Shown here piece by piece: positions 1-26,730 of a DNA stretch of 29,526 nt (the stretch's first letter is position 1; each line of letters opens with the position of its first letter). The notes under the pieces are model-generated. The model was not told the DNA's origin and ran no database searches. It saw nothing but the letters and a program-made list of their open reading frames with translations. Origin of the DNA: a virus; the IMG/VR virus record IMGVR_UViG_3300025849_000151, positions 1 to 29,526 of that record. One strand, given 5' to 3'. The position numbers and the translations under genes were made by a program.

Positions 1-362
1 TCTGCTTCATAGTATTTTCTGTACTCGTCCAAGGTTTGACCTTGTTGTATCATATATGCACGTATTTGTGCAAAGTTCTTAGCTAACAATTCGTAGTCAT
101 CATCACTTAGGCCAAAAAGTACAGGGTCTTTACCAGACTCTTGCATTTTAGCAAATACTTCTGCTGCATTTTCACTAGTGATAATAATCCATTTAATATT
201 TTCTAACTTAGGTGTTTCTGGATTAGGGAGATTAAGAGGAGCTCTTTCAACCTCTGTCTTAAACACGTCTAACTTTTGTACCGAACTACAACTAGTAAGG
301 AACGTAGTTAGGATTAGCAATGCTAGGACACTCAGAATTGATCTGTGATTTCTTAGTTGCAT
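1..362 (-). CDS. Putative o-spanin lipoprotein (Rz1-like), partial
   Basis: The reading frame is open from an ATG at 362 to the left edge, so the C-terminus is missing; 120 codons are visible. The first ~25 residues form a lipoprotein signal: basic MQLRNHR, a hydrophobic stretch, then lipobox LTSC with the Cys near residue 24. The rest is hydrophilic and ends in the window with a DEYRKYYEA-like segment. A GGAGG ribosome site lies a few bases before the ATG. The start lies inside the 3' end of the i-spanin gene in another frame (71-bp overlap), the classic Rz/Rz1 arrangement. By family knowledge, an o-spanin sits in the outer membrane and pairs with the i-spanin to fuse the two membranes in the last step of lysis. 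The visible part is longer than most Rz1 proteins and not proline-rich, so the role rests mainly on the lipobox and context. Confidence 0.72.
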   Translation of the reverse strand, partial: MQLRNHRSILSVLALLILTTFLTSCSSVQKLDVFKTEVERAPLNLPNPETPKLENIKWIIITSENAAEVFAKMQESGKDPVLFGLSDDDYELLAKNFAQIRAYMIQQGQTLDEYRKYYEA

Positions 363-777
363 TTATCTCGTCCTCCGTTAAGGGCGATCCCATAGCAATT
401 TCTACACAACGCATTGCTTTGTTACTCGCACCGTTAATAACACGTTCAATTGATCTACTACGCTCAACAGCAAGTTTGCCAATATCACGTACTTCGCCTT
501 GAGCATTTATTTTGTTAAATCGTTCGTCAAGTGCTGCAAATTCTTGTTGCAATACTCTGTTTTGATTTTGCAATGTTTCATTGGCTGCTAGTATATTAGT
601 AAAGTCTTGCTTTTGCTGTGCTATTACGGCTTGTTGTTCGCCTATTGATTGTTCTAATATAAGATTGTTTGCTTTAGCAGTTTCTAAATCTGCTTTTACT
701 GTTTTATAATGTAAAAAGCCGCCACCCGCTGTTAACAGGGTAACGACAATCATAGCAATTTTTAATGAACTAAACAT
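292..777 (-). CDS. Putative i-spanin (Rz-like)
   Basis: 161 residues. An N-terminal membrane anchor (about residues 5-22) is followed by a long predicted coiled coil rich in Gln, Glu, Ala and Leu (about 25-95). The C-terminal part carries a Cys pair (CVEIAMG and SECPS). This is the topology of inner-membrane spanins: one N-terminal anchor with a periplasmic coiled coil. It directly follows the small membrane protein at 784-948 and contains the start of the lipoprotein gene in another frame, completing the order endolysin, holin candidate, i-spanin, o-spanin. Spanins diverge too fast for a sequence-only name, so the call depends on topology and neighbours. Confidence 0.75.
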   Translation of the reverse strand: MFSSLKIAMIVVTLLTAGGGFLHYKTVKADLETAKANNLILEQSIGEQQAVIAQQKQDFTNILAANETLQNQNRVLQQEFAALDERFNKINAQGEVRDIGKLAVERSRSIERVINGASNKAMRCVEIAMGSPLTEDEINATKKSQINSECPSIANPNYVPY

Positions 778-783
778 AATTGC

Positions 784-948
784 TTAGTCTTCTTTTTTCC
801 ATATAGTCCAAGCGCCGTACCCAATAGCCGCATATGCAGCTAGTTTTGCAAATGGTCCTGCAATTAGTACAATAATACCTACAGCAACCAAAGCAGCTCC
901 ATCCCAAGATGTGCGCTCGTCTAATCTATTTTTAATCCAATTAATCAT
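784..948 (-). CDS. Small membrane protein, holin candidate
   Basis: 54 residues, beginning MINWIKNRLDERTSWD and ending with the charged tail WKKED. Residues ~17-33 and ~36-50 are hydrophobic with a Gly/Pro break (AGPF), so one long or two short membrane segments are possible. The start ATG overlaps the endolysin stop as ATGA, which indicates translational coupling. It sits between endolysin and i-spanin, the usual place of a holin. A holin forms inner-membrane lesions that release the endolysin. No family match can be asserted for so short a protein; size, topology and position support the call. It is a real gene by frame, overlap and composition. Confidence 0.65.
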   Translation of the reverse strand: MINWIKNRLDERTSWDGAALVAVGIIVLIAGPFAKLAAYAAIGYGAWTIWKKED

Positions 949-1823
949 CCTAATAGTTTCTCCAATGTGTTAGGTCCAGCAATACCATCAGCTACTAAAC
1001 CTTTTTTAGCTTGCCATTCTTTTAATTTTGCTTCTGTTCCAGGTCCAAAATGTCCATCATCTGTAACACCTAATGCTTTTTGTAACATTTTAACACCGTC
1101 ACCTTTTGAGCCTTTACGTAGTAGTCCGATATCGTCAATGATATCTTCAAACTCGTCATCTGTTGAATCTAATTCTTCTGGCTCCATACCAAGTACTTTC
1201 ATAGCATGTATATAACGACTTTGACGATCTTCAAGACCGATTGTACCACCGTTGATTTTTTTAGTCATTTCTCTAACATCATCAGGGGAGTTATCAGCTG
1301 TATCATTTAAGTTACGTGTATCCCAATACCAGCAAGCACTTTCAACAGCGCCTTCAGGTGTTGCAACATATTCAGCTGCTTTTTCAGGAGTTATTCCTAC
1401 TGATCTTCCGAAGTTAGTATAATTTTCACGTCCGGTTAATTGTTTAAGTCCTCTGCCTCTAAACAACCATCCGTCACCTTCTTCAGTGTTGCCCATTTTG
1501 TATCTACGATATTCATCATTGTATACATAGTTTGCAATCATTTCTGGTTTACGAGCATATTCATCTGCATCACGCTTTGGAGCATCACCAAAATAACGTC
1601 CAAACACAGCACGAAGTGCTTTTGCTGAATAGTTTAAATTTTCTTCAAGACGCTTAAAGCCGCCTGATTCATGAGCACATTGGCTTAAGAAATGTGCTAC
1701 TCTACGCTCTGTTGTAATGCTATACCTAGGTAGAATTTCGTATAACGCATCAAACCAATCATCTGCATCTGCATCAATTATTTCTGCTAGATGCTCTTTT
1801 GTAAAATCAAATTCAAAACTCAT
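945..1823 (-). CDS. Endolysin: GH19-like muramidase/chitinase domain plus peptidoglycan-binding domain
   Basis: 292 residues. The N-terminal catalytic domain resembles glycoside hydrolase family 19 lysozyme/chitinase-like endolysins. It has the HFLSQCAHESGGF segment at 44-56 with the likely catalytic Glu52, a second acidic site near Glu60-61, and the GDGWLFRGRGLKQLTGRENY region (116-135) typical of the family. An acidic linker (~213-232) leads to a C-terminal PG_binding_1 domain (~234-292, with DGHFGPGTEAKLKEWQ and VADGIAGPNT). There is no signal peptide, so export would need a holin, which fits the next gene. A ribosome site (AAGGAT) precedes the ATG. It would cleave the peptidoglycan glycan backbone at the end of infection. 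Confidence 0.88.
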   Translation of the reverse strand: MSFEFDFTKEHLAEIIDADADDWFDALYEILPRYSITTERRVAHFLSQCAHESGGFKRLEENLNYSAKALRAVFGRYFGDAPKRDADEYARKPEMIANYVYNDEYRRYKMGNTEEGDGWLFRGRGLKQLTGRENYTNFGRSVGITPEKAAEYVATPEGAVESACWYWDTRNLNDTADNSPDDVREMTKKINGGTIGLEDRQSRYIHAMKVLGMEPEELDSTDDEFEDIIDDIGLLRKGSKGDGVKMLQKALGVTDDGHFGPGTEAKLKEWQAKKGLVADGIAGPNTLEKLLG

Positions 1824-1824
1824 A

Positions 1825-2541
1825 TTATATCCTTTTTAAAACGAGAGCCTTGTCTTCATTTTCAAAAACAAGTTTATCTCCATACTTACTTATGTTATAG
1901 TCGCCGATGTACTTAGTCAAAAAGAGTATTTCGGGGTAGCTTTCCATTAAATCAAACTTACCTTCAATTGATTCAAAAATGTTATGATTTGTATCAAAAT
2001 CTATAAACTCAAATACTAATGGATCTGCATAAGCCTTTTTGATAGTAAGCATATTATGCTTCATATCAACACTTTCAACAAAACTTTTATTAAAAAAGTT
2101 TTTGAAATTATTTAAATTACTTTCAACAGCTATTATACCGTAGTTTTCTGGTGCGTCAGGAACCAGTGCTTGGTATTCTTCTAGTGTCGCATCCTTACTA
2201 TGAAAGTCTTTATAGTAACGAAATTTAAACTTATCCATTGCTGCTAATTTTCCAACGCCGTCAATTATTTCGTTTATATTATCGTGTACACCACGTTCTC
2301 TTTGCAACTCTACAAATACTTTGTACATACCATCTGACTGTTCTCCGGCTGTAGCATCTGCATCTAAAATAAAGTTATATCCTTTTTCTAGAAAGTTTGC
2401 TAAATCTTCAGCTGGCTGTTTGTCTTGAACACTAAAACTTAGTGTTACAATGTTCTTATCATCACCCATCTTTGATGAGAATGAATCTACTTCAAATACA
2501 CTATCAATAAGGTTAACTAAATCTCCTGCACGTAAACTCAT
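1825..2541 (-). CDS. Unidentified phage protein, 238 aa
   Basis: I do not recognise the family. The protein is acidic and hydrophilic with no signal peptide or membrane segment. It reads as a folded alpha/beta protein with many Phe/Tyr/Ile-rich strands in its second half. The start overlaps the stop of the upstream gene (TAATG), and its stop lies just before the endolysin start, so it is translated as part of the unit that ends in lysis genes. A late-promoter motif upstream of the unit suggests late expression and a virion or assembly role; that is inference from position only. Confidence 0.85.
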   Translation of the reverse strand: MSLRAGDLVNLIDSVFEVDSFSSKMGDDKNIVTLSFSVQDKQPAEDLANFLEKGYNFILDADATAGEQSDGMYKVFVELQRERGVHDNINEIIDGVGKLAAMDKFKFRYYKDFHSKDATLEEYQALVPDAPENYGIIAVESNLNNFKNFFNKSFVESVDMKHNMLTIKKAYADPLVFEFIDFDTNHNIFESIEGKFDLMESYPEILFLTKYIGDYNISKYGDKLVFENEDKALVLKRI

Positions 2542-3110
2542 TAAATTACATCCTCTGCGCCTGCAGCTGGTGCCGCTCCTGGTGCTGCTAGATCAGGTAT
2601 TGGTGCCGCTCCTGCGGCTGCTGTGTCTGCGGCTTGTGTTTCCATTTCTGGAGCATTTACGTCAGTAGCAGGTTCTGCATTAAATCCTTTTGCATCTGCA
2701 TAACTAGTGTAAATGTCTGCAATTAATTTTTTAGGCATTTCAATCTCTACTACCCATATAGGCATACGATCTAATTTTCCCTTTTTAGTACCAGGACGCA
2801 AATCATCTGGTGTACGAATCTTTCTAGGATTTATAATATGTGTTTTTGAATAACCTATTTTACAATCATAATCCACTAATCTTTTTGCACCCATAGGATC
2901 TGGCATTTTAGCTCTTGGCCACATAAACTTACAAGTGATCCAATGTCGTCCAATTTTAGGACCATCTAATAATTCACCATCTTCCCAGTTTTTGTAAACA
3001 TATAATTCAACTTCGTCAAGAACTCTTTCAAAGTCTTTTAATACTTGAAATGATGTGTCACTGTCGTAGATTGTTTCTACGTTCTTGACTAAATCGTAAA
3101 TATCTTCCAT
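2541..3110 (-). CDS. Unidentified phage protein with Ala/Pro-rich tail, 189 aa
   Basis: First gene of the leftward lysis-linked unit. Residues 1-~140 look globular, with an Asp/Glu-rich N-terminal helix region and basic strands (for example KIGYSKTHIINPRKIRTPDD). Residues ~145-189 are low complexity (AADTAAAGAAPIPDLAAPGAAPAAG), probably a flexible tail. The start is preceded by AGGAT and, 39 bp upstream, by the late-promoter motif GATAAATA. No function is recognised; late timing suggests a structural or assembly protein. Confidence 0.85.
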   Translation of the reverse strand: MEDIYDLVKNVETIYDSDTSFQVLKDFERVLDEVELYVYKNWEDGELLDGPKIGRHWITCKFMWPRAKMPDPMGAKRLVDYDCKIGYSKTHIINPRKIRTPDDLRPGTKKGKLDRMPIWVVEIEMPKKLIADIYTSYADAKGFNAEPATDVNAPEMETQAADTAAAGAAPIPDLAAPGAAPAAGAEDVI

Positions 3111-5310: not shown

Positions 5311-5685
5311 TTACTCATAGTCTGGACTATCCTTCATAATGTCCGGACCTTCTCCTACTGGATTAAAATACTTCTCGTACTTATTAGGTACACCATCATA
5401 CTTTTCAGCATCTGGCAATGGATCCTTTTGATCAACAATGTTTGGCCATTCGTAACTGTTTACAGTATTAATCTGAATCCATTTACTTCTGTCAGGTTCT
5501 GGTAATTCATTGTCTGCTACAATAGCATCAACTGGACATTCTGGAACACATACCCCGCAATCAATACATTCGTCTGGATTGATTACAAGCATATCTTCGC
5601 CTTCGTAAAAACAGTCTACTGGACAAACACTTACACAATCAGTGTGCTTGCATTTTATACAATTATCTGTTACTAAGTATGTCAT
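5311..5685 (-). CDS. 7Fe (3Fe-4S/4Fe-4S) bacterial-type ferredoxin
   Basis: 124 residues. Cysteines at 9, 12, 17, 21, 25, 40, 43, 46 and 50 reproduce the Azotobacter FdI/FdxA pattern shifted by one residue. By that precedent Cys9, 17 and 50 bind the 3Fe-4S cluster and Cys21, 40, 43 and 46 the 4Fe-4S cluster. The segments [13 protein letters not shown] and [14 protein letters not shown] are close to alphaproteobacterial FdxA. The tail is long and acidic. This differs from the plant-type 2Fe-2S PetF ferredoxins known from cyanophages. The start overlaps the clamp-loader stop (TAATG). It would carry electrons in the host cytoplasm; the partner is unknown. Confidence 0.93.
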
Positions 5686-24407: not shown

Positions 24408-24767
24408 TTATATTATTTCTGGAATGGTATCCATATCAAAATTTACACTAACACCACATCCACAACTGCTTTGTGCATTAGGATTCTGTATATCAAACAT
24501 AGCACTCATAATGTCTTTTTTGTAGTTAATTACTGTTCCTACAAGAAACATTACACTGTGTGTTCCTATTACTAAATTGCCCAATCCTGTGTTAATAACT
24601 TCGTCGTTGTCTTCTATTTCATCTTCTGAAAGTATTGTTTGCCATTCGTATTCAAAGCCTGCACATCCGCCACCTTTTACATTTAATGTAACAGCATAGC
24701 ACTGATTTTCCTCACAAATTGTGTTGATTTGATGTTTTGCTTGGTCTGTTAGTGTACAAATAGTCAT
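24408..24767 (-). CDS. A-type Fe-S cluster carrier (IscA/ErpA/HesB-like)
   Basis: 119 residues. The three cluster-binding cysteines of the family are present: Cys35 in KGGGCAGFEYEW, and Cys102 and Cys104 in SSCGCGVSV. Length is close to bacterial IscA/ErpA. It would carry and hand over Fe-S clusters in the cytoplasm. It sits at the head of the late structural unit, with a late-promoter element 27 bp before its ATG and the giant fibre gene directly downstream, so its expression is likely late. HesB/IscA homologues are known in T4-like cyanophages. Confidence 0.9.
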   Translation of the reverse strand: MTICTLTDQAKHQINTICEENQCYAVTLNVKGGGCAGFEYEWQTILSEDEIEDNDEVINTGLGNLVIGTHSVMFLVGTVINYKKDIMSAMFDIQNPNAQSSCGCGVSVNFDMDTIPEII

Positions 24768-24786
24768 TCTTTACCTTCCTTATCAG

Positions 24787-24794
24787 TATTTATC
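24787..24794 (-). promoter_or_regulatory. Late-promoter-like element GATAAATA
   Basis: GATAAATA on the minus strand, 27 bp before the ATG of the IscA-like gene. It probably also drives the giant fibre gene, which follows after 20 bp. Confidence 0.75.
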
Positions 24795-24803
24795 GTATTG
24801 TTT

Positions 24804-24809
24804 TATAAT
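24804..24809 (+). promoter_or_regulatory. Possible -10 box (TATAAT) for the zinc-ribbon gene
   Basis: A perfect TATAAT on the plus strand 19 bp before the ATG at 24828. The matching -35 position (24781-24786, TATCAG) is poor. A TGTAAATA at 24815-24822 also resembles the late motif but is only 13 bp from the ATG. Which is used cannot be told from sequence. Confidence 0.35.
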
Positions 24810-24827
24810 CTTAATGTAAATATAGTT

Positions 24828-25115
24828 ATGTTTATAAGAGAATTTAAAAAGCAAAGTCGGCATGTACGTAAAAGCAAAACAGGCAAGGAACACGCCTACA
24901 AGCGTGAACAAACTGTATGTGTGTTTAGATGTGATAACTGTGATACAGAGTTCGAACGTGCCAGAGGAAGTATGGATCCTAAGCGCCTAAGTAATTCCTA
25001 CTTTCACGTATGTAAGAACTGTGATAGTAAGACTTTTGCTCAGAAAAAAGGCGTAGAACAAAAGCAAAAATGGAATATGACTGCTAGTAGTTCTACACCT
25101 ATAAGTAAGTTGTAG
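24828..25115 (+). CDS. Small zinc-ribbon protein, 95 aa
   Basis: From the ATG at 24828 (MFIREFKKQSRHVRKSK); a TTG ten codons upstream is less likely. Two CxxC pairs, CDNC (35-38) and CKNC (62-65), form a probable treble-clef or zinc-ribbon site. The N-terminus and C-terminal half are very basic. That suggests nucleic-acid binding, but no specific family is recognised. One of only three plus-strand genes in the window, divergent from the IscA-like gene. Confidence 0.8.
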   Translation: MFIREFKKQSRHVRKSKTGKEHAYKREQTVCVFRCDNCDTEFERARGSMDPKRLSNSYFHVCKNCDSKTFAQKKGVEQKQKWNMTASSSTPISKL

Positions 25116-25146
25116 TTCTTTTTTATACTATTGTCTTATAAAATTT

Positions 25147-25154
25147 AGTAAATA
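25147..25154 (+). promoter_or_regulatory. Late-promoter-like element AGTAAATA
   Basis: AGTAAATA on the plus strand, 28 bp before the ATG at 25175. It shares the TAAATA core and spacing of the minus-strand elements, which supports a functional late promoter on this strand. Confidence 0.55.
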
Positions 25155-25174
25155 CTAATTCAAAAGGAGAAATT

Positions 25175-25429
25175 ATGTTTAAATGGTTACAAAATTTATT
25201 TGGTTCTGGCACAGTAGTTAACGTTGTTAATGAAGTATTTCCTGACGAAGTACAGGAAAGTGTTAACTCAAAGAAAAGTGTAAAGGTTACTAAGGCAAGT
25301 TTGTCAAAGTTCACTAAGCAAGAATTAGAAACATTTGCAAAAGAAACTTACAGTGTTGACATTGACAGGCGTAAAAAGAAAGCTGATTTAGTCAGCGAAG
25401 TGCTTAAACTTTCTAAGAACGCAAAATAG
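25175..25429 (+). CDS. Small SAP/HeH-like protein, 84 aa
   Basis: Strong ribosome site AAAGGAGAA before the ATG. Residues ~40-80 (TKASLSKFTKQELETFAKETYSVDIDRR then KKADLVSEVLKLS) have the two-helix spacing of SAP/HeH or Rho-N-like DNA-binding motifs. The N-terminal 30 residues (MFKWLQNLFGSGTVVNVVNEVF) are hydrophobic to amphipathic. Function unknown; nucleic-acid binding is the best guess. Its 3' end overlaps the convergent coiled-coil gene by 17 bp. Confidence 0.75.
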   Translation: MFKWLQNLFGSGTVVNVVNEVFPDEVQESVNSKKSVKVTKASLSKFTKQELETFAKETYSVDIDRRKKKADLVSEVLKLSKNAK

Positions 25430-25700
25430 CACTTTTTAATTGTTCGATTGCAGTTTCACAACGAGTTAGCTTACGCTCTAATGTAGTAATAGCAGCTCGT
25501 TGTTTTCTTGACTGTTCTTCCAAGCTAGTTACATATTGAAGTGACGGAACTTCTTGCTGAGTGCCATCTTCACCTAACATGGTAAATCTATCAACACCCT
25601 GTGCTTTTAGTCCACCAGTAACTCTGTTTGGATTTTTATCAGACGCAGTCGGTAACGAAGGCTTCGCTTGGCGCCCGTACATTTTGTTCAAATAGCTCAT
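25413..25700 (-). CDS. Small coiled-coil protein, 95 aa
   Basis: N-terminus MSYLNKMYGRQAKPSLPTASDK is basic and probably unstructured. The C-terminal ~40 residues (VTSLEEQSRKQRAAITTLERK and LTRCETAIEQLKSAIL) form a clear coiled coil. It has its own perfect late-type promoter TATAAATA and ribosome site (GAGGAG), so late expression and a virion or assembly role are likely. It overlaps the 3' end of uvdE by 62 bp in another frame. Family not recognised. Confidence 0.78.
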   Translation of the reverse strand: MSYLNKMYGRQAKPSLPTASDKNPNRVTGGLKAQGVDRFTMLGEDGTQQEVPSLQYVTSLEEQSRKQRAAITTLERKLTRCETAIEQLKSAILRS

Positions 25701-26730
25701 AGTGTTTTAACTCCTCTTTGTATTTATATAGGTCAATACTAGCAAGGTTCTTACACTTGCTCTCGCACATAATATCTGCGTAAGGCAAAAAGCTCAATGC
25801 CCAGTCATTAACAAGTTGATTAGGATAGTAATCACTGTGCGCTCGTAGTTTTGCTTTCTTGTGTCCTGCTTCTAATAGTGCAGGCATATTGGGCATTGTA
25901 TCGTGTGCAAAGCCTTCGGGCAATGCTTCGTTGCGACTGTATGAATAATGTATTACAGGACGCACACCGCGCCAGCTGTCAATCACACGAGCAAATCTAT
26001 CGTCGGTGGGTAAGATATATTCAGCTTCGCGGCACCAGTGGTGGTGTATGTCAAGAACGAGGGCACATACATCGACGAGTTCAAGGCTGTGTTCAAGGCC
26101 CCATTTGTTTTCGTCATTTTCGATCGTGATAACATTTCTCGCCTCTTGAGATAGTCTTGTGTTAACTGCGTGTTTGATACCGGCTGGACCTTGCCTGCCT
26201 GATATGTGGACGTTGCATTTAAAGTCTTGGAATGTGCGTCCATAGCCCATCCAGCGGATGACATCGGTGTGATATTCAAATTCTTCTATGCTCCTATCTA
26301 CAATATCAGGGTTGTCAGATGCAAGCACAGTAAACTGACCAGGATGCATAGACAACCGTACATCCAACTGCCTTGCAAGCTCGCCGACCCTTGCGAAATG
26401 CTTTTCACAATATGCGACCACAGCAGGTAGTTTCCAATAATAACTCCAGTCAAGCTGAGTGTATACAGGAAGGACGTCACTGCCAAGTCGAACCATTCGT
26501 AATTCATTTGGTAAACTCCCTACGTATTCAATCAAATTGTAGTATGACTGAATGTTATGCACCATGATGTCCCACAAGCGTTCTTCTGCAACATCACGAG
26601 TTTGTCTATTAAGCCACTGTACTGTAGTACTACGAGTATTTAGTGGTCGCTGAATTTCTTCTAGTAGTTTCTTCTTCTGTGTTTGATCTGGATGCATGTA
26701 CTTACATGCAAAGCCTATACGTTTTACCAT
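25639..26730 (-). CDS. uvsE: UV-damage endonuclease UvsE/UvdE
   Basis: 363 residues, slightly longer than bacterial UvsE. Metal-site motifs of the TIM-barrel family are visible: RLSMHPGQF (125-133), HISGR with His175, ENDEN (204-208), LDIHHHW (226-232) and RAHSDYY (296-302). The enzyme nicks DNA 5' of UV photoproducts and some abasic sites, starting repair without light; for a sunlit-water phage it would protect or restore genomes. The start has a GGGAG ribosome site and an early-type promoter ~115 bp upstream. The last 62 bp overlap the next gene. Confidence 0.92.
   Translation of the reverse strand: MVKRIGFACKYMHPDQTQKKKLLEEIQRPLNTRSTTVQWLNRQTRDVAEERLWDIMVHNIQSYYNLIEYVGSLPNELRMVRLGSDVLPVYTQLDWSYYWKLPAVVAYCEKHFARVGELARQLDVRLSMHPGQFTVLASDNPDIVDRSIEEFEYHTDVIRWMGYGRTFQDFKCNVHISGRQGPAGIKHAVNTRLSQEARNVITIENDENKWGLEHSLELVDVCALVLDIHHHWCREAEYILPTDDRFARVIDSWRGVRPVIHYSYSRNEALPEGFAHDTMPNMPALLEAGHKKAKLRAHSDYYPNQLVNDWALSFLPYADIMCESKCKNLASIDLYKYKEELKHYELFEQNVRAPSEAFVTDCV
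25721..25728 (-). promoter_or_regulatory. Perfect T4-type late promoter TATAAATA inside uvdE
   Basis: TATAAATA on the minus strand, 28 bp before the ATG at 25700, identical to the T4 late consensus. It lies in the 3' coding part of the UV endonuclease gene, letting the coiled-coil gene switch on late apart from its early neighbour. Confidence 0.78.

Follow-up and report, generated by a model that had tools for sequence, protein, structure and literature searches.

Spanin pairs, as well as cassettes which join an endolysin, a holin and spanins, are textbook features of phage lysis. Two-component spanins have been classified by Kongari et al., with 228 of 528 falling in the overlapped class (PMC6139136). 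For the family Kyanoviridae, a 2025 survey reports a predominantly endolysin-only condition (PMC12596118). The words lysis, holin and spanin are absent from the main text of a 2020 survey of pelagimyophages (PMC7029224). In the paper describing the phage Melnitz, gp67 is the only lysin-like gene, and the CsgGF curli pore is proposed as an analogue of a pinholin (PMC9004378).

The locus described here is found at one end of the window we have analyzed, 29,526 bp, which is the whole of the IMG/VR record IMGVR_UViG_3300025849_000151; the record contains no further sequence to the left of position 1. The locus codes for an endolysin, a 54 amino acid membrane protein (tm54), an i-spanin and an o-spanin. 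The observation is real, its core reading is correct, and the kind of system is ordinary: Many phages possess a gene set like this one. Taken as a whole, we consider it reasonably likely that these genes form a lysis module with a GH19 endolysin and an overlapped spanin pair, in which tm54 would most likely be the holin, or half of a holin-antiholin pair.

Genome and gene order

The virus had initially been described as a T4-like marine phage. Its genes for a clamp loader, ThyX, PhoH and a giant tail fibre agree with this description, as do its relatives HTVC008M and Melnitz, which are both filed under Kyanoviridae. The sequence supports a marine myovirus of the T4-like kind, with relatives in the pelagimyophage/methylophage branch of this family.

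The lysis genes are all on the minus strand and are read leftwards. They are preceded by two virion structural genes and have the order endolysin, tm54, i-spanin and o-spanin, the last of which reaches the window edge. The four reading frames of the initial annotation were confirmed at the positions stated (Table 1). The endolysin gene starts 1 nt after the structural genes, so the lysis genes close a run of structural genes; the same order is found in most related loci. The genes had been described as chained by ATGA and frame overlaps. This is correct for the endolysin and tm54 (ATGA) and for the two spanins (frame overlap). On the other hand, tm54 and the i-spanin gene are separated by a 6 nt gap. 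SD-like sequences are found ahead of the gene starts, with ggagg before the ATG of the o-spanin. The cassette had also been considered complete, which is not borne out: Related phages hold more small membrane genes directly downstream, past the window edge.

Table 1. Features found in the window, with their positions, strand and main characteristics.
Feature	Positions	Strand	Characteristics
o-spanin (P0001), Rz1-like lipoprotein, first 120 residues	3–362	(−)	Signal peptide and lipobox LTSC-S; runs off the window edge
i-spanin/o-spanin overlap, 71 nt	292–362	(−)	o-spanin in the +1 frame of the i-spanin
i-spanin (P0002), Rz-like, 161 aa	292–777	(−)	N-terminal TM anchor and helical periplasmic domain
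tm54 (P0003), 54 aa membrane protein, candidate holin or holin partner	784–948	(−)	ATGA overlap with the endolysin gene
Endolysin (P0004), 292 aa	945–1823	(−)	GH19-type catalytic domain and C-terminal PG_binding_1
Two virion structural genes	1825–2541, 2541–3110	(−)	PHROG_13138 (3.8e-21), PHROG_12928 (5.3e-26)
Ferredoxin-like protein (apparent)	5311–5685		Two 4Fe-4S motifs
A-type (HesB-like) Fe-S carrier protein (apparent)	24408–24767		
HesB-like and UvsE-like genes	24408–26730	(−)	Site of the only tm54 copy in many relatives

Contigs seem to end often in or beside spanin genes. Besides the left edge of the window, this is the case in L007, L040, L042 and L048, and also in L002, L009, L020, L034 and L046, where the contig ends 84–466 nt beyond the o-spanin stop. 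Such ends may point to variable neighbouring sequence which breaks the assemblies.

Endolysin

The product of the first gene of the module is very probably an endolysin, judging from its similarity to known families. It belongs to an endolysin family in PHROGs (phrog_181, 1.4e-71). In Pfam, PG_binding_1 is found with 8.5e-12, while Glyco_hydro_19 (0.00023) stays below the cutoff. A comparison with the PDB gives endolysin 9ms6 (4.7e-30, with the ESG motif aligned), and also 9eoi and 4ok7. In these comparisons, the fold, the catalytic Glu motif and the likeness to solved endolysins are all those of a GH19-type enzyme. By inspection, the N-terminus has neither a signal nor a TM segment, so the enzyme should need a holin to exit the cytoplasm.

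Spanin pair

The i-spanin and the lipoprotein which follows it almost certainly constitute a two-component spanin pair of the Rz/Rz1 type, to be placed in the overlapped class. In PHROGs, both are assigned to Rz-like spanins: The i-spanin matches PHROG_739 (2.6e-9), PHROG_214 (2.8e-6) and also PHROG_89, and the o-spanin matches PHROG_812 (4.5e-9). Searches of Pfam and NCBIfam with the spanins only gave sub-threshold noise, and the alignment of the o-spanin gave no significant match when its profile was compared with the PDB. When a model of the o-spanin (pLDDT 70, pTM 0.33) was compared with BFVD using Foldseek, two significant matches were found, one of them named "Lipoprotein [uncultured Caudovirales phage]".

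The initial annotation was to be given up if homologues did not conserve the lipobox or the TM segment. Both are kept across 25–29 spanin homologues. The TM segment and the core of the i-spanin are conserved in alignment A3, and its N-terminal hydrophobic segment is present in 25 homologues. The lipobox cysteine of the o-spanin (Cys25) is invariant in the 25 rows of alignment A5, and the lipobox can also be read in the homologues from Vibrio phages and Melnitz. Homologous o-spanins have 124–131 amino acids, so the o-spanin in the window should be short by only about 4–11 C-terminal residues.

The o-spanin gene had been described as embedded in the i-spanin gene, which is wrong. The two genes share only 71 nt, at the end of the i-spanin gene, and the o-spanin continues for about 290 nt beyond the i-spanin stop, up to the window edge, which corresponds to the overlapped class (PMC6139136). 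The overlap also has 71 nt in L002, L017, L019, L031 and L045, and ranges from 14 to 176 nt in more distant relatives.

Spanin pairs in related phages

The o-spanin is found in 47 IMG/VR loci, nearly all of them, and every one which reaches far enough, with the i-spanin directly upstream. The gene upstream of the pair is exchanged among loci: It may code for a GH19 or a GH108 protein, or for a DUF1353 protein in place of an endolysin. The spanin pair remains constant, as a core beside which the endolysin is swapped. Certain loci also code for a small CxxC protein and even for an acyl-carrier-like protein. The latter (71–83 amino acids) directly precedes the i-spanin in L004, L008, L024 and L045, where it comes after the endolysin or CxxC gene. 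A second tiny lipoprotein-like reading frame is present just after the o-spanin stop, or overlapping it, in L011, L016, L030, L035 and L135. It has about 50–60 amino acids, with a lipobox such as SSC-S and further cysteines.

The pair is also present in the Vibrio phages phiKT1024, pv27 and Va1, in HTVC008M and in Melnitz, and the order and overlap of the spanin genes are kept from the Vibrio phages through to the window. Family profiles, the conserved lipobox and TM segment, gene order and an overlap maintained across deep divergence all bear out the endolysin and the two spanins proposed initially. It had also been remarked that such genes are seldom annotated in these phages. This agrees with the records of HTVC008M, Melnitz and the Vibrio phages, whose homologues appear as "hypothetical protein", and with both surveys (PMC12596118, PMC7029224).

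The pair of the Pelagibacter phage HTVC008M (L049, NC_020484.1, 117049–117788) is a particular case. As deposited, neither gene keeps an intact reading frame: There are apparent frame shifts at A-runs, which are probably due to sequencing error. These breaks may explain why the spanins were missed in its annotation. The presence of the pair in HTVC008M and Melnitz corrects the endolysin-only picture (PMC12596118) for at least part of Kyanoviridae.

The 54 amino acid membrane protein

That tm54 is a real gene is practically certain, to judge from its conservation. It has 380 relatives in IMG/VR, and alignments of representatives have a mean column identity of 68–70%. The comparison of the window with L017 gives a dS of 0.47 and a dN of 0.07 (dN/dS about 0.15). 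With dN well under dS, tm54 is under purifying selection. The gene is short, and the o-spanin overlaps another gene, so the two frames might be taken for a chance reading frame and an overlap artefact. This is extremely improbable, as both proteins are conserved, in dozens to hundreds of contigs, with SD-like starts. The chance frame is ruled out by its conservation in hundreds of contigs and by a dN much lower than dS. For the lipoprotein, the artefact is ruled out by protein conservation, the invariant lipobox cysteine and the SD-like start.

The hydrophobic stretch of tm54 covers residues 17–50, with KD values up to 2.65 (15-residue window). Two stretches have octanol energies of -5.0 and -4.0 kcal/mol. 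As expected of a holin, it is a small hydrophobic protein with at least one TM segment. The small residues G17-G24-G31-A38-G45, spaced as a heptad (i, i+7, i+14, i+21, i+28), are invariant in alignment A4, with a permutation p of about 0.0005 for a period picked among six tried. The more distant copy in L142 has a lysine at position 31, so G31 is not absolute. An AF2 model, based on an alignment of the window and IMG/VR loci with the Melnitz row left out, consists of a single helix (residues 2–53, pLDDT 84) with a low pTM (0.36). This helix might correspond to a single long TM segment or to two short ones. No family match, of holins or otherwise, was found in Pfam, PHROGs and NCBIfam, with only sub-threshold noise in Pfam and NCBIfam.

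In several lineages tm54 is located just before the spanin pair. The preceding gene codes for GH19 (the window and L017), GH108 (L077, L082, L085, L086, L088 and L089), a GH24 lysozyme (L075) or DUF1353 (L025, L029, L031 and L032). In L064 the DUF1353 gene follows the o-spanin instead. L122 has the order tm54-glutaredoxin-GH19, with tm54 one gene away from the endolysin. Contigs with both the o-spanin and tm54 have a single copy of the latter in 24 of 24 cases, six of them in the cassette and 18 elsewhere. Where the flanks were read, the copies away from lysis genes are found between UvsE-like and HesB-like genes, as in most pelagimyophage-like contigs. Two contigs (3300017770_003026 and 3300020463_001175) have a cassette without tm54 and a distant site which contains it. 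At the UvsE/HesB site of the window no second tm54 was found. tm54 is a mobile part, present either in the lysis cassette or at the distant site.

This location of most copies, next to UvsE/HesB-like genes and not to lysis genes, would also be expected if tm54 were unrelated to lysis: a small membrane protein involved, for example, in host takeover or superinfection exclusion, inserted by chance between lysis genes in some lineages. We consider this unlikely, as tm54 is repeatedly found near endolysins of three different folds (GH19, GH108 and GH24) and near the spanin pair, even where the o-spanins of the lineages share only about 25% identity. A location away from other lysis genes also has a precedent which counts against a role outside lysis: The T4 holin gene t is found beside tail-fibre genes, far from the endolysin and spanin genes.

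L141 (PAWD01000044.1) has tandem tm54-like genes beside the spanins, DUF1353 and TM93 (a TM protein of 93 amino acids), as expected of a holin/antiholin pair. This contig is binned as Thaumarchaeota. Three tm54 loci are found in GTDB contigs, which we judge, from their gene content, to be phage contigs mis-binned into MAGs. Besides L141, this applies to L140, in a Neomarinimicrobiota bin, and to several contigs of the Rhodobacteraceae bin G080.

Candidates for the holin

The initial annotation proposed tm54 as the holin of the cassette. The membrane protein itself is real and the role is plausible: Its size, its hydrophobicity and its recurrent presence near endolysins and spanins make it a holin candidate. 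On the other hand, it has no function assigned in the libraries, its position is not fixed (the 18 contigs mentioned above keep it away from the spanins), and HTVC008M and the Vibrio phages have the same spanins with no detectable tm54. In addition, the AF2 helix of 52 residues does not clearly resemble a two-TM holin, with its pTM of 0.36, and rival membrane proteins are found beside the spanins.

These rivals are two-TM proteins, either EF108 (108 amino acids, with an EF-hand) or TM107 (107 amino acids, phrog_10198). One of them might be the holin, together with TM93, leaving the endolysin and spanins as described and tm54 as an accessory or regulator (an antiholin, for example) or as a membrane protein without a role in lysis. 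In most of the loci which extend far enough downstream, the o-spanin is followed by TM93, EF108/TM107 or both. Among these is L017, whose layout comes closest to that of the window. Their position is stable, while that of tm54 varies, and tm54 comes directly behind TM93 or EF108 in L142, L066 and L069. However, they have no assigned function either, and neither EF108 nor TM107 was found next to the spanin pair of Melnitz, HTVC008M or the DUF1353 loci. The window ends ahead of this region, which is known from relatives alone. We regard this alternative as possible, but rather doubtful. In L017 (5421–6028) and its homologues, TM93 and EF108/TM107 form a second block of membrane proteins beside the spanins, and the phrog_10198 type is also found in about 350 Vibrio phages.

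With all this considered, tm54 probably acts in lysis, given its sequence and its neighbours, and it has slightly less than an even chance of being the holin proper. If it is, its long hydrophobic helices would pack through the stripe of small residues and assemble in the inner membrane. The resulting lesion would release the endolysin from the cytosol, and the enzyme, with its GH19 and peptidoglycan-binding domains, would then cut the peptidoglycan. Once this is cut, the i-spanin/o-spanin complex would fuse or disrupt the inner and outer membranes. We infer this last step, disruption of the outer membrane, from the established biology of Rz/Rz1.

When T4-like phages lyse SAR11, OM43 and other abundant bacteria of the ocean, a large amount of carbon is moved. 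In T4-like ocean phages, such gene sets have been mostly unrecognised so far. The spanin pair is now placed in HTVC008M and Melnitz, as well as in dozens of metagenomic relatives. As a candidate for the missing holin of Melnitz, tm54 is simpler than a curli pore (PMC9004378). We tentatively suggest that it founds a new family of holins (or holins/antiholins) in abundant T4-like phages of marine bacteria, characterized by a helix of about 54 residues, a zipper of small residues every seven positions and a mobile, single-copy gene. Together with the spanins, it might replace both the view of Kyanoviridae as endolysin-only and the curli-pinholin proposal for Melnitz. The small size of tm54 and of the two-TM proteins encoded downstream would allow them to be synthesized and assayed directly in E. 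coli, which makes this candidate family testable.

Comparison with known systems

Among the closest known systems is that of the Methylophilales phage Melnitz, whose host is the OM43 strain H5P1. Its gp32–gp35 (L133, MZ577097.1, 23669–24908), all annotated as hypothetical, correspond to tm54, a TM/coiled-coil protein (gp33), the i-spanin and an overlapping o-spanin, and its tm54 is 81% identical to that of the window. It differs from the window in gp33, an extra gene which separates tm54 from the i-spanin, and in the endolysin (gp67), which is unlinked. After gp35 come a DUF1353/TM protein and a coiled-coil protein which resembles the one behind the HTVC008M spanins.

HTVC008M and the Vibrio phages phiKT1024, pv27 and Va1 have homologous i-spanins and o-spanins, about 33–46% identical and adjacent as in the window, and in the Vibrio phages the two genes also overlap. 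Unlike the window, the records of HTVC008M, phiKT1024 and Va1 have no detectable tm54, and the homologous GH19 endolysin of the Vibrio phages is encoded elsewhere.

The similarity of tm54 to holin T of T4, gp17.5 of T7 and the pinholin S21 of phage 21 is only a functional analogy, as small inner-membrane proteins which trigger or allow endolysin action. No sequence similarity to them was found in the libraries used, and tm54 is shorter, with a single long helix in the AF2 model.

The window pair is placed among Rz-like spanins only by families at the PHROG level (phrog_739/812). In contrast to lambda, its o-spanin is not embedded, is longer (124–131 amino acids in homologues) and has a C-terminal helical region. 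As in lambda Rz/Rz1 and P2 LysB/LysC, a TM-anchored i-spanin and an outer membrane lipoprotein in the +1 frame are encoded downstream of the endolysin gene, and the overlapped layout is the same as that of P2 LysB/LysC.
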